From positions 1 to 51,546 of the forward strand of contig WQWB01000005.1 in assembly GCA_009785555.1 (NCBI GenBank): DNA of 51,546 bases, written 5' to 3'. Within the stretch, counting starts at the first letter, position 1. Each line of letters starts with the position of its first letter. The notes under the pieces are model-generated. The model was given only the letters and a program-made list of their open reading frames with translations. It made no database searches and was not told the DNA's origin. This DNA is from Defluviitaleaceae bacterium (GTDB lineage: Bacteria; Bacillota; Clostridia; Lachnospirales; WRAX01). Made by a program: the position numbers and the translations under genes. Below, one piece after another: positions 12,117 to 48,843 of the stretch.

Positions 12117-12167
12117 AAACTTTACCCTTCGTAGTTTTGCTTTTGATATCAGTCCGCAATTAAATAC

Positions 12168-12210
12168 GTACTTAGCTCGCGCGACTAAGTGCGTTTCGCT
12201 CACTAAGTAC
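12168..12210 (-). repeat. Structured repeat element, internally deleted copy C
   Basis: Read on the minus strand it starts GTACTTAGTGAGCG and ends CGCGAGCTAAGTAC. Both ends match the full copies at 17121 and 30122 (12 of 13 bases at the 5' end and about 20 of 24 at the 3' end against the 30122 copy), but the ~85-nt middle is absent. The ends pair perfectly over 8 bp (12168-12175 with 12203-12210). It lies 51 nt ahead of the sigma-factor start on the same strand. Confidence 0.65.
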
Positions 12211-12229
12211 AATTTTTAAATGTGGATAC

Positions 12230-12247
12230 ATATGAACGCGTTCATAT
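12230..12247. promoter_or_regulatory. 18-bp perfect palindrome, possible operator
   Basis: The sequence ATATGAACGCGTTCATAT is fully self-complementary, as expected for a dimeric HTH protein site. It lies 114 nt upstream of the sigma-factor start. Which protein binds it is unknown; autoregulation by the winged-helix part of the sigma factor is one possibility. Confidence 0.4.
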
Positions 12248-17081: not shown

Positions 17082-17120
17082 CAGGAGTAGCGGTGGTAAT
17101 TTATCTATGTTAGAATAATT

Positions 17121-17287
17121 ATAGCGTAATGAAGTTAAAACAGTTACATAGTGAGCGGATAGACCCTTTTGTTTGCTTCGTAAACGGCCGGGTGGCACTC
17201 CGCGTTGCTGCGCAATTGGCAAACGAACTTGAGCTCCAGCGTACTTTGAGCGCGAACTTTGTAACTGTTTAAGTCTCATTTAGCTAT
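17121..17287 (+). repeat. Structured repeat element, full copy A (possible RNA leader or small mobile element)
   Basis: The ends (17128-17147 and 17261-17280) form a long imperfect stem, best in CAGTTAC with GTAACTG. The middle contains 52 nt (17183-17234) identical to copy B at 30184-30235, including GGGTGGCACTCCGCG and an inner hairpin CGTTGC...GCAAACG. Copy B's end stem is CTGCTAC/GTAGCAG: the bases differ but pairing is kept, which argues for selection on structure. The element ends 26 nt before the AraC-type start on the same strand, so it is likely to lie in its leader. I do not recognise it as a named riboswitch or RNA family. Confidence 0.7.
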
Positions 17288-17313
17288 GCATCAAGTTAAA
17301 GGATGGGATACGG

Positions 17314-18315
17314 ATGGAATATATAACGGTAATCCAGTCGGTTTTGGATGAAATCGACCGCAGGATTACGGAAAAAATCAAAGTTGACGAGTTGGCACGC
17401 GCGGCTAACTATTCGACTTACCATTTCTGTCGGGTGTTTTTGGCTCTCACTGGGACGCCGGTTATGAACTATGTAACCCGACGTAAACTTGAGTATGCCC
17501 AGCATGACCTGTCTCGGGGCAAAAGGATTATTGAAGTTGCGATGGACTATGGATTTGATACCCATGCGGGCTTCGCGAAGGCGTTTAAAAAATGCTTTGG
17601 CTTTCCGCCGTCTTTGTGCCGTTTGCGTTTCAAAAACGAATTGCCCCAAAGAATGACGGTCAACAACCTGAAATTAAGACATGGAGGATTTATTATGACC
17701 CCTTACATTACAGTTGCGACGCCGTTTATTGTAGCTGGAAGAACGAACCGCCACAAGATGCCGAACGTAAGAACCACCGCCGATATCCCTGCATTTGATT
17801 TTGACGAAGTAAGGTCAGGTGTCCACGATCTACTTGATGGCACGTCCAAGTTGTTCAGCAAATCCGACGCGATCAAACATTGCGAAATTGAAATGTGTTA
17901 CGATGTCGATGAGGACTCCGGCGAGTTTACCTATTTCGCCGGCCGCGGCATCTTCCACGCGGATGATTTGGAGAATATCTTGCCGGATATGGAGAGCTTT
18001 GAGGTCAGTGGCCTGTACGCGATATTTACGACACCTCTCTCGCCTTTCGAGCAAAGGGAGCAGTCAGCTAAAACCATACGGGATACGTGGCAATATATTT
18101 TTGCAGAGTGGCTTCCAAATTCTGAGTTTGAATACGATGAAACGCGCAGGGATTTTGAGTTTCATGACAATAAATGCCACGGGTGGTATTTCGACTGTAA
18201 AAAGCAGAGTGAAATCCATATCCCTATCCGCCAATGCGAGGACGCAAGGATACAATCCCAAAATAAAATGAAAACCCTTTGGGAAGAGGAAATGAAGCGC
18301 CGAGAAGGAATATAA
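17314..18315 (+). CDS. AraC-family regulator with GyrI-like effector domain
   Basis: The product has 333 residues. The N-terminal ~110 form two AraC-type helix-turn-helices (VDELARAANYSTYHFCRVF and IIEVAMDYGFDTHAGFAKAF, then FGFPPS). From about residue 135 to the end is a GyrI-like/AraC effector-binding domain, which usually binds small, often lipophilic or antimicrobial molecules. GGATGGGAT precedes the ATG. Structured element A lies immediately upstream. A terminator follows the stop, so the gene is monocistronic. The neighbouring MntP-like exporter gene could be a target, but nothing in the sequence proves this. Confidence 0.9.
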   Translation: MEYITVIQSVLDEIDRRITEKIKVDELARAANYSTYHFCRVFLALTGTPVMNYVTRRKLEYAQHDLSRGKRIIEVAMDYGFDTHAGFAKAFKKCFGFPPSLCRLRFKNELPQRMTVNNLKLRHGGFIMTPYITVATPFIVAGRTNRHKMPNVRTTADIPAFDFDEVRSGVHDLLDGTSKLFSKSDAIKHCEIEMCYDVDEDSGEFTYFAGRGIFHADDLENILPDMESFEVSGLYAIFTTPLSPFEQREQSAKTIRDTWQYIFAEWLPNSEFEYDETRRDFEFHDNKCHGWYFDCKKQSEIHIPIRQCEDARIQSQNKMKTLWEEEMKRREGI

Positions 18316-30082: not shown

Positions 30083-30121
30083 GTGCGCTTTCTGTCATGG
30101 TAAAAAGGTTAATAACATTGT

Positions 30122-30288
30122 ATAATATAATGAAGTTAAAACTGCTACTTAGTGAACGGACGGATCCTCTTGTTTGCTTCGCTAACGGCCGGGTGGCACT
30201 CCGCGTTGCTGCGCAATTGGCAAACGAACTTGAGCGGTAGAGTACTTTGTACGCGAGCTTAGTAGCAGTTCAATCTTCATTCAGCTAT
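30122..30288 (+). repeat. Structured repeat element, full copy B
   Basis: Same architecture as copy A at 17121. The inner 52 nt (30184-30235) are identical, and the end stem is CTGCTAC (30142-30148) with GTAGCAG (30262-30268), plus an outer AATGAAG/CTTCATT match. Compared with copy A, three base pairs of the end stem have changed on both sides. It lies 42 nt upstream of the MerR-like gene on the same strand. A frame through it codes for the start of a short peptide but ends at a TAG at 30238, unlike copy A, so coding is not the conserved property. Confidence 0.7.
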
Positions 30289-30330
30289 ATCATGGATAAA
30301 ATAGAAACCATATAGGAGGTAAATTACATA

Positions 30331-30552
30331 ATGGATAAACTCTATAACTTAAAAGAAGCCGCAAAAAAGGTGAATTGTTCGCGCAAAGACCTTCGCGATT
30401 ACCACAGGAGCGGGTTGGTTGCCGGTGAATATTCCGGCGGGGAACTGTGTTTTTCGGAATCTGTCCTTAACGATTTCATTTCGCGGTTCGCTCAAATCGA
30501 AAAAATGAAGGCCGACGCAAAGGCGGGCGCAAGGCGCATGGGGATGATGTAA
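30331..30552 (+). CDS. MerR/excisionase-like small DNA-binding protein
   Basis: The 73-residue product is a single MerR-type helix-turn-helix and wing (LYNLKEAAKKVNCSRKDLRDYHRSGLV, in two parts). It lacks the dimerisation helix and effector domain of full MerR regulators, so it resembles excisionases and small SinI/AlpA-type regulators. AGGAGG lies ~13 nt before the ATG. Structured element B is directly upstream. Confidence 0.7.
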   Translation: MDKLYNLKEAAKKVNCSRKDLRDYHRSGLVAGEYSGGELCFSESVLNDFISRFAQIEKMKADAKAGARRMGMM

Positions 30553-45702: not shown

Positions 45703-48700
45703 ATGTTCAAACCTATCGACAACAATATGAACTTCGCCGCGCGCGAGCTTGAAATCATAAAGTTTTGGGAAGAAAACAAGATTTTTGAAAAAAGTATTGA
45801 ACAGCGTGAAGGAAAAGAGAATTTTACGTTCTATGAAGGGCCGCCTACGGCCAATGGTAAGCCGCACATTGGGCATGTTATTACCCGAGCCTACAAAGAC
45901 GCCGTGCCGCGCTACCAAACGATGAAGGGTAAAAGAGTGCTTCGCAAAGGAGGCTGGGATACGCATGGTTTGCCTGTTGAGCTTGAAGTTGAAAAGACCC
46001 TTGGGTTCACCGGTAAAGCGGATATCGAAAAATATGGCGTGGAGCCGTTTATAAAAAAATGCAAGGAATCAGTTTGGACGTATAAAAACGAGTGGGAAAC
46101 CATGAGCCGCCGTGTCGGTTATTGGCTTGACTGGGAAAACGCGTATATTACCTACACCAATGACTATATCGAGTCTGTGTGGTGGGCAATTAAACAGATC
46201 TGGGATAAAGGGTTTATCTACAAAGGCCATAAAATCGTGCCATACTGCGCGCGGTGCGGTACGGCTCTGTCCAGCCATGAAGTGTCGCAGGGATATAAGG
46301 ATGTGAAGGAAGATTCGGCGTACGTGCTTTTTAAAGTTGCTGGCAAGGATGATGGTAAAGATAACGAATATTTCGTCGCGTGGACGACTACGCCTTGGAC
46401 ATTACCGTCTAACGTCGCCTTGGCTGTTAATCCCAAAGAAATTTATGTAAAAGTAAAGGACGAACAAGGGCGGGTTTTGATCTTAGCTGAAGCTTTGGCA
46501 AAAAAGTTGTTGGGTGATGAGGTTGAGATTTTGGAAAAGTTTAAAGGCGAGACGCTGGAACGCGTAAAGTATGAACCGCTTTTTGACTTTGCCGGTGACA
46601 TTGACGCTTTTTACGTTGTGTGCGCGGATTATGTTACTCTGACAGACGGTACAGGTATCGTTCACACGGCCCCGGCATTTGGTGAGGACGATTATAGGAG
46701 TGGTGTAAAATATAATCTGCCATTTGTGAACCTTGTTAATGACGAGGGTTGTTTTCTGCCTGCGGTAATAAATTGGGCAGGTATGTTTGTAAAGGATGCG
46801 GATATCGAGATTATCAAGCATCTTAAGCAGGCTGGGCTTCTATTTAAAAAACAGGCATATGAGCATAGTTACCCACATTGTTGGCGTTGCGATAGGCCGC
46901 TCCTCTACTACCCGCGTGAATCTTGGTTTATCAAGATGACCGCCGTGCGTGACGAACTTGTCGCGAATAATAACAATATAGATTGGCGGCCGGATTCCTT
47001 CCGCACGGGGCGCATGGGTGATTGGCTCAAGAATGTTGTGGATTGGGGTTTTAGCCGAGAGCGTTATTGGGGCACACCACTGCCGATATGGGTTTGCGGG
47101 TGTGGGTATCAGACGGCAATTGGAAGCGTTGAGGAACTTAGGGAACAGGCAGTTGATCCCATCAAAGTTGAAGGGCTTGAGCTGCATAAACCGTATGTAG
47201 ATGATGTTTCCTTGAAATGCCAAAAATGCGGGGATAAGATGACGCGCACGCCCGAAGTGTTGGATTGCTGGTTTGACAGCGGCTCGATGCCGTTTGCTCA
47301 GCTGCATTACCCATTTGAAAACAAGGAGCTTTTTGAGGAAAATTTCCCGGCGGACTTTATCTCCGAAGCGCAGGATCAAAGCCGCGGATGGTTCTATACG
47401 ATGCTTGCGATTTCCACGCTTCTGTTCGGTAAATCCTCGTATAAGCGATGCGTAGTCCTCGGCCATATACAGGATAAGAACGGACAGAAAATGTCCAAAT
47501 CTAAAGGCAATATGACGGAAACCTGGGACGTGCTTAACAAACAGGGTGCGGATGCGCTGCGTTGGTATTTCTATACCTTCGGTTCGCCGTGGCTTTCAAA
47601 TAAGTTTAACGAGGACATGCTTAACGAAGGTCAGCGTAAAATGATGGGTACGCTTTGGAACGCCTACGCATTCTTCGTGCTTTATGCTAATATCGACGGG
47701 TTTAACCCGGCCGAACACGCTTTGCCGGCCGCCGCCGACCTTGCGCCGATGGATAGGTGGGTTCTCTCCCGCTTCAACACCCTAGTTAAGTTTGTGGACG
47801 AAAACCTTGGGGATTACCATATCACGGAAGCCGCCCGCGCAATTACAGCATTTGTAGATGAACTGTCAAACTGGTATATCCGCCGTTGCCGCGAGCGTTT
47901 TTGGGCAAGCGGCATGGAAAGGGACAAAATCAACGCGTACATGACACTGTATACGGTGCTCCGTACGATGGCGTCACTTGTCGCACCATTTACGCCTTAT
48001 ATCGCTGAAAGTTTATACCAAAATTTGGTGGTAGAGATTGATAAAAACGCGCCGGAATCGGTGCACCTTACGAACTTCCCCGTTCTTGACGCGTCCTACG
48101 TCGATGAATTACTAGAGAAAGATATGGATTCGGTGCTTACAATCGTTGAACGCGGCCGATCTGCCCGCAATACTGCAAACCAAAAGATACGCCAGCCGCT
48201 TGCGCGGATGTACGTAAAGGCTCCAAAAACGCTGTCGTCGGAATATATGGAGATTATCCGTGATGAACTGAATATCAAGGAAGTCATTTTTGCGGACGAT
48301 ATGGCGGCCTTTGCGACGTACACGTTCAAACCACAACTTAGGACGTTGGGCCGCAAATATGGCAAGCTCGTGCCGCGGATCGGTGAGGAGCTTGCGAAGG
48401 AAAACGGCGGAGAGTTTCTTGCAAAGCTCAAAGCTGGCGGCATAACGCTGACGGTGGACGGCACTGAGGTGCAGTTGACGGAGGAGGACGTACTCGTAGC
48501 CGAATCCGCCGGGACGGATTTTGTGACGGACACGGGCAGGAACGTAACCGTCGCGCTGGATGTACGCCTTGCGCCGGAGCTTATTGAGGAAGGTTACGTG
48601 CGCGAGATTATCTCAAAGATCCAAAATATGCGTAAAGAGGCCGACTTTAACGTGACGGATAAGATCAACGTGGGTTATGAAACTACGCATGAGCTTGAAG

Positions 48701-48843
48701 CGATAATACAAAAGAATGTTGACTTTATCCGCGCTGAGGTGTTGGCCGATAAGTTAATCGTTGGGACGTGCGGCGAAGGGCGTTTGGTTAAGACATGGGA
48801 TATAAACGGGGTTGAGGCCGTGTTTAGCGTGGAGAATTTATAA
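45703..48843 (+). CDS. ileS: Isoleucyl-tRNA synthetase
   Basis: The 1046-residue product is a class Ia synthetase. HIGH appears as PHIGHV (~residue 55), KMSKS as KNGQKMSKSKGN (~595), and GWDTHGLPVE is typical of IleRS. The long C-terminal region and start style resemble the IleRS2 branch (eukaryote-like, usually less sensitive to mupirocin). Internal CGCG/CQKCG cysteines could bind zinc. AAGGGGAT precedes the ATG. The 156-nt leader has no T-box motif, unlike many Firmicute ileS genes. Confidence 0.96.
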   Translation: MFKPIDNNMNFAARELEIIKFWEENKIFEKSIEQREGKENFTFYEGPPTANGKPHIGHVITRAYKDAVPRYQTMKGKRVLRKGGWDTHGLPVELEVEKTLGFTGKADIEKYGVEPFIKKCKESVWTYKNEWETMSRRVGYWLDWENAYITYTNDYIESVWWAIKQIWDKGFIYKGHKIVPYCARCGTALSSHEVSQGYKDVKEDSAYVLFKVAGKDDGKDNEYFVAWTTTPWTLPSNVALAVNPKEIYVKVKDEQGRVLILAEALAKKLLGDEVEILEKFKGETLERVKYEPLFDFAGDIDAFYVVCADYVTLTDGTGIVHTAPAFGEDDYRSGVKYNLPFVNLVNDEGCFLPAVINWAGMFVKDADIEIIKHLKQAGLLFKKQAYEHSYPHCWRCDRPLLYYPRESWFIKMTAVRDELVANNNNIDWRPDSFRTGRMGDWLKNVVDWGFSRERYWGTPLPIWVCGCGYQTAIGSVEELREQAVDPIKVEGLELHKPYVDDVSLKCQKCGDKMTRTPEVLDCWFDSGSMPFAQLHYPFENKELFEENFPADFISEAQDQSRGWFYTMLAISTLLFGKSSYKRCVVLGHIQDKNGQKMSKSKGNMTETWDVLNKQGADALRWYFYTFGSPWLSNKFNEDMLNEGQRKMMGTLWNAYAFFVLYANIDGFNPAEHALPAAADLAPMDRWVLSRFNTLVKFVDENLGDYHITEAARAITAFVDELSNWYIRRCRERFWASGMERDKINAYMTLYTVLRTMASLVAPFTPYIAESLYQNLVVEIDKNAPESVHLTNFPVLDASYVDELLEKDMDSVLTIVERGRSARNTANQKIRQPLARMYVKAPKTLSSEYMEIIRDELNIKEVIFADDMAAFATYTFKPQLRTLGRKYGKLVPRIGEELAKENGGEFLAKLKAGGITLTVDGTEVQLTEEDVLVAESAGTDFVTDTGRNVTVALDVRLAPELIEEGYVREIISKIQNMRKEADFNVTDKINVGYETTHELEAIIQKNVDFIRAEVLADKLIVGTCGEGRLVKTWDINGVEAVFSVENL

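Follow-up and report, generated by a model that had tools for sequence, protein, structure and literature searches.

The elements described here very probably form a new MITE family, that is, non-autonomous DNA transposons belonging to a known kind of mobile DNA. Two long copies, A and B, lie in the window, the whole stretch of 51,546 nt that was analysed (Defluviitaleaceae bacterium, GCA_009785555.1, contig WQWB01000005.1, here C5, positions 1–51,546 of the forward strand). An earlier note on this DNA had proposed for them a cis-acting leader RNA, a small RNA, or a structured non-autonomous mobile element, and the last of these is supported by terminal inverted repeats (TIRs), duplicated targets, and dispersed intergenic copies. 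In the proposed scenario, a transposase supplied in trans would recognize the element ends and insert the element at TNA (type II elements and those of the related genome G001) or TA (type I elements, including the long copies of the window), with duplication of the target site; the sub-lineage of A and B would have gained an insertion of about 64 nt next to the loop of the hairpin before multiplying. The paired changes in the stems would come from the joint evolution of both ends; selection for folding, as DNA or as RNA, may add to this but is not required.

Structure and distribution of the elements

Copies A and B (167/168 nt; 17120–17287 and 30121–30288, both on the + strand) are 83% identical without gaps and share an identical block of 52 nt, in agreement with the earlier description of two structured copies around a common core; a search of the window for 51 nt of this block gave exactly two matches, against 0 expected from 100 shuffles. 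TA marks the borders of the element proper. In copy A (long form, 17120–17288, +), a left TA at 17120–17121 precedes the element at 17122–17286, and the right flank at 17287–17288 is TG where TA would be expected; in copy B (long form, 30121–30289, +), the element at 30123–30287 lies between TA at 30121–30122 and TA at 30288–30289. The extra core of about 64 nt, at 17164–17227 (+) in A and 30165–30228 (+) in B, both with approximate ends, is missing from the short forms; no other part is as well conserved across the six long copies. The apex motif, CTTGAGCTCCAGCGTACTTT in copy A (17228–17247, +) and CTTGAGCGGTAGAGTACTTT in copy B (30229–30248, +), is common to the short forms and the G001 elements.

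About two dozen copies were found in the own genome, a 1.69-Mb draft, 84% complete, from an uncultured lineage; six of them are long (about 165 bp), and the rest measure about 75–110 bp, with some smaller. The DNA search returned the six full-length long copies, on C5 (two), C22, C10, C3, and C11, together with truncated copies, and the end-sequence search returned shorter elements with the same ends and without the 64-nt core on C8, C9, C69, and C20. Further, more divergent copies were matched by the covariance models R1 (arms) and R2 (a wider model), including a third copy in the window, a short form on the − strand (12144–12235, element 12147–12232) flanked by the direct repeats TCA at 12233–12235 and 12144–12146 (− strand reading). 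The long copies thus resemble short forms into which a segment was inserted next to the loop of the hairpin. Each full copy is a single long imperfect inverted repeat with no transposase gene inside, the ends of every long copy align to each other as TIRs, and element sizes over both genomes range from 35 to 169 bp. A parent transposon would be expected to end in TACCAAGTTGCAATC or TAGCGTAATGAAG. The end subtypes, which include TAGCGTAATGAAGTTAAAAC, TACGTATCCGCAATTAAAAT, TACGTATCTCAAGTAAAAT, and TATGCGTATTGAATTTAAAAC, look like gradual variants of each other. The hairpin loop GGCTTGAGCGnnnGCGTACTTA is common to all full-length subtypes and to the elements of G001; it is thus conserved between genera, whereas the ends have diverged.

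At one locus (L101/L086, own genome C7:37098–37201 and upstream), the left arm of a family member is broken by about 90 nt that hold an inverted repeat of their own (GTTGAAAAC...TTTTCAAC), which may be another small element inserted into it.

The long-form DNA search across 391 genomes of the class gave matches in the own genome only, and, with few candidates scored per genome, divergent copies would be missed by it. The exact core patterns had 0 matches in the genome collection, and blastn of the long form and of one G001 element against plasmids and phages gave no match. Four matches of the loop pattern in viral contigs, none with a hairpin, were judged to be due to chance, and weak matches of the loop-centred model R3 in four other family genomes (E 0.07–0.23) were left out of the counts. 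An R2 match in genome G053, a hairpin of different look and without the loop motif, was also treated as chance; the G053 locus C9:76789–76881 (L091), a long palindromic repeat of the CGCGGATTT type without the loop motif, is probably unrelated to the element family. No description of the family was found among the open-licence papers searched.

Target-site duplications and recent transposition

G001, a genome of the same family and another genus (100% complete), gave 19 matches to the R3 model, and 60 element ends were counted there with the end pattern vs 0 with a control pattern. In the fetched stretches, 28 TIR-paired elements of 35–162 bp could be read, with TIRs near-perfect over at least 15 bp and, in 23 of the 28, identical 3-bp flanks (TTA, TAA, TCA, TGA, and one GTA), nearly all of the form TNA; 18 full-length copies are near-identical. 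The G001 copies are the result of transposition, and of recent transposition; for an uncultured lineage, this is clear evidence of a MITE active in the recent past, whose parent could not be detected.

In nine own-genome copies of the TNA type and two copies of G001, the middle bases of the two flanks agreed in 9/11 and were complementary in 1/11; the flanks are therefore target-site duplications and not an extension of the hairpin. Type I copies (A and B among them) always have the left TA and mostly the right TA as well, which by itself is weak evidence of duplication. Derivatives of 35–68 bp have kept both ends and lost the middle, with identical flanks in 6/7. The suggestion of a dedicated small RNA finds no positive support, as derivatives down to 35–47 bp retain the ends without the middle and no Rfam family matches: the Rfam covariance-model search of the window gave 0 matches at gathering score, and at E<1 nothing relevant was found for six element loci.

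Three G001 loci (L180, L181, and L182) have the same kind of ends (TACCATGTTGCAATC) around another interior of 132–162 bp, which holds one or two units TTACTGACGGCGCAAA..CGCGCCATGG and a GTCGTACC..GCGTACGAC hairpin; exact 3-bp duplications are present in 2/3 of them.

Stem covariation and the conserved loop

The end stems, CAGTTAC-A/T-GTAACTG in copy A and CTGCTAC-T/A-GTAGCAG in copy B, differ by three paired changes, exactly as had been noted, and both copies fold more stably than shuffled sequence (z = −2.9 and −2.4 for A and B, respectively); the opposite strand of copy A also folds better than shuffles, as an inverted repeat should. At family level, the stems covary strongly: among 14 copies, 19 of 25 stem pairs show two-sided changes and 87.6% of cells are paired vs 68.8% in shuffles, and in 15 sequences from two genera the apical stem shows two-sided changes in 9 of 10 pairs around the conserved loop. 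Self-versus-cross pairing among the six long copies is modest, at P = 0.017, a value inflated by shared descent. The earlier argument that transposon ends would not require such paired changes is too strong, since paired divergence of TIRs gives the same pattern; for the same reason, covariation alone cannot tell RNA from DNA. This family shows that the repeats of a MITE, too, can acquire paired stem changes, a pitfall when RNAs are sought by covariation.

The same data could reflect a mobile element whose movement or upkeep depends on an extruded hairpin. A protein would read the loop of the single strand (DNA or RNA), and selection would hold the stem pairing and a fixed loop while the stem sequence drifts. 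The two-sided changes in the full and apical stems and the conservation of the loop agree with this alternative, which is nevertheless unlikely: in the 18 near-identical, recent G001 copies, no stem pair has changed on both sides, a change on one side has left a G-U pair in 28 cases, and 9 pairs are broken, and the TNA duplications point to a normal staggered cut. Moreover, derivatives without the loop also have identical flanking repeats, and the loop therefore seems dispensable for movement, unless deletion followed insertion. The more specific idea that the apical loop, and not the ends, is the long-term recognition feature, with a host or element protein reading the extruded hairpin, has a slightly smaller chance still of being right; if true, stems would be forced to covary while the ends drift.

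The putative mobilizing enzyme

For the MITE family proposed here, the mover would be a DDE transposase, judging from the type of target site. A TNA target fits enzymes of the IS5/PIF-Harbinger type, and a TA target those of the IS630/Tc1 type. Neither PF13358 (DDE_3, IS630/Tc1) nor PF01609 (DDE_Tnp_1, IS4/IS5) was detected in the 84%-complete own genome, and no pair of element ends about 1 kb apart was present in the 100%-complete G001; the enzyme may have been lost, may lie in unassembled sequence, or may act from outside. These negative results count against the MITE reading, and so does the combination of a conserved loop with diverged ends, as a transposase should bind the ends. For specialists, the interest lies in this conserved loop with covarying stems and in the missing parent: what reads the loop?

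Genomic placement and neighbouring genes

All copies examined are intergenic, with 0 inside genes, where gene calls were a simple longest-ORF selection. The earlier statement that both window copies stand 26–42 nt before a DNA-binding regulator is correct in the distances and for copy A, which ends 26 nt upstream of a gene (17314–18315, +) for an AraC-type regulator with a GyrI-like/Cass2 effector domain; it is unconfirmed for copy B, which ends 42 nt upstream of an ORF of 73 aa (30331–30552, +) with no match in Pfam or NCBIfam. Both lie outside the elements. The third window copy precedes a sigma-factor gene (− strand) by about 27 nt. Elsewhere in the window, an isoleucine--tRNA ligase is encoded at 45703–48843 (+), for which the MupA model scores 1041 bits (cut-off 1900) and the general ileS model 982 bits; the protein is probably a eukaryote-like IleS and no evidence of mupirocin resistance.

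The genes next to the copies are unrelated (FolD, SSB, sigma factors, an ABC transporter, MATE, AraC, and others) and the orientation is mixed, but in the own genome AraC, HTH, or sigma genes make up 8/17 of the genes with their start towards a copy vs 3/43 of comparison genes (Fisher P = 0.0009), an excess noticed post hoc against a small, hand-counted set. This excess is independent of element orientation, and may be explained by the long upstream regions of regulator genes. It could also indicate that MITE copies turned regulatory after insertion and were retained upstream of regulator genes, through promoter, mRNA-stability, or RNase-site effects, for which ERIC and Correia elements offer precedents (PMC10969869). 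Such a role is improbable, given the limits of the comparison set, the 0/4 regulators among the tested facing genes of G001, and the mixed orientation, which is unexpected for an RNA-processing effect.

A cis-acting leader RNA, riboswitch-like or an attenuator, controlling the downstream gene would account for the stable fold, the stem covariation, the position of several copies 19–46 nt upstream of start codons, and the regulators and sigma factors among the facing genes of the own genome. The orientation test largely refutes it: copies upstream of gene starts are 20 sense and 19 antisense, the scatter regardless of gene strand that the earlier note had associated with a MITE; copies between tandem genes are 13 in the same and 12 in the opposite direction, and 5 copies lie in convergent gaps. 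Together with the unrelated downstream genes, the target-site duplications, and the absence of an Rfam match, these counts make a leader RNA very improbable.

The 64-nt core and its reading frame

Among the six long copies, variable columns number 7/66 in the core vs 40/100 in the arms (P = 4e-5), and the DNA search found the 64-nt core alone nowhere in the own genome; its conservation could be functional, or the core could be more recently homogenized or less mutable. A 47-codon ORF (window 17129–17272, +) spans the long form from an ATG in the left end, and that it encodes a small protein is the least credible of the alternatives, as its being open in 4/6 long copies and silent changes in slight excess (18, vs 27 replacement changes; P = 0.05 uncorrected) are set against early stops in copies B and C11, the lack of a ribosome-binding site within the element, a product with no relatives and no family match (including tblastn against plasmids and phages), and the 42-aa ORF that ERIC likewise bears (PMC2759123), so that the ORF is probably fortuitous.

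Comparison with known repeat families

Bacterial MITEs are small intergenic hairpins with TIRs, target-site duplications, and TA ends (PMC2229807, PMC10969869), and the present elements match this class in their features. The Correia/NEMIS elements of Neisseria are long hairpin MITEs with TA ends, located near gene starts, that affect neighbouring transcription (PMC10969869, PMC2229807); the present elements share the build, the TA ends, and the position near gene starts, although the organism is unrelated. In Streptococcus pneumoniae, BOX, RUP, and SPRITE form clusters of small repeats inserted in one another (PMC10969869), which the long form recalls in resembling a short form with an insertion, although the 64-nt insert was never found alone in the own genome. 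REP/REPIN sequences with RAYT (Y1) are GTAG/CGTC-tagged palindromes of 20–40 bp, whereas the present elements are much longer and bear TNA/TA duplications, which speaks against this relationship.

RUP, also from S. pneumoniae, is a 107-bp intergenic MITE with a TA target and inverted repeats (PMC2229807), features found in the present elements as well; its ends match those of the resident IS630-Spn1, whereas here no matching transposase or parent was found (PF13358 and PF01609; G001 ends). ERIC (IRU, RU-1) of enterobacteria is an intergenic imperfect palindrome of about 100–170 bp with TA ends and a duplicated target, present in many copies, with a stable stem-loop, an incidental ORF, and a parent IS that is not established (PMC2229807, PMC2759123, PMC10969869). 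Compared by build and not by sequence, the two families share the small intergenic imperfect palindrome, the TA ends, the duplicated target, the many copies, the stem-loop, the incidental ORF, and the lack of an established parent; the present family differs in its TNA duplications in most subtypes, its loop GGCTTGAGCGnnnGCGTACTTA, its subtype-specific ends, and its host, whose genome carries a SigG-like sigma factor and is probably that of a clostridial Firmicute. Although membership in either family is not claimed, ERIC and RUP are the nearest to the present family in build.
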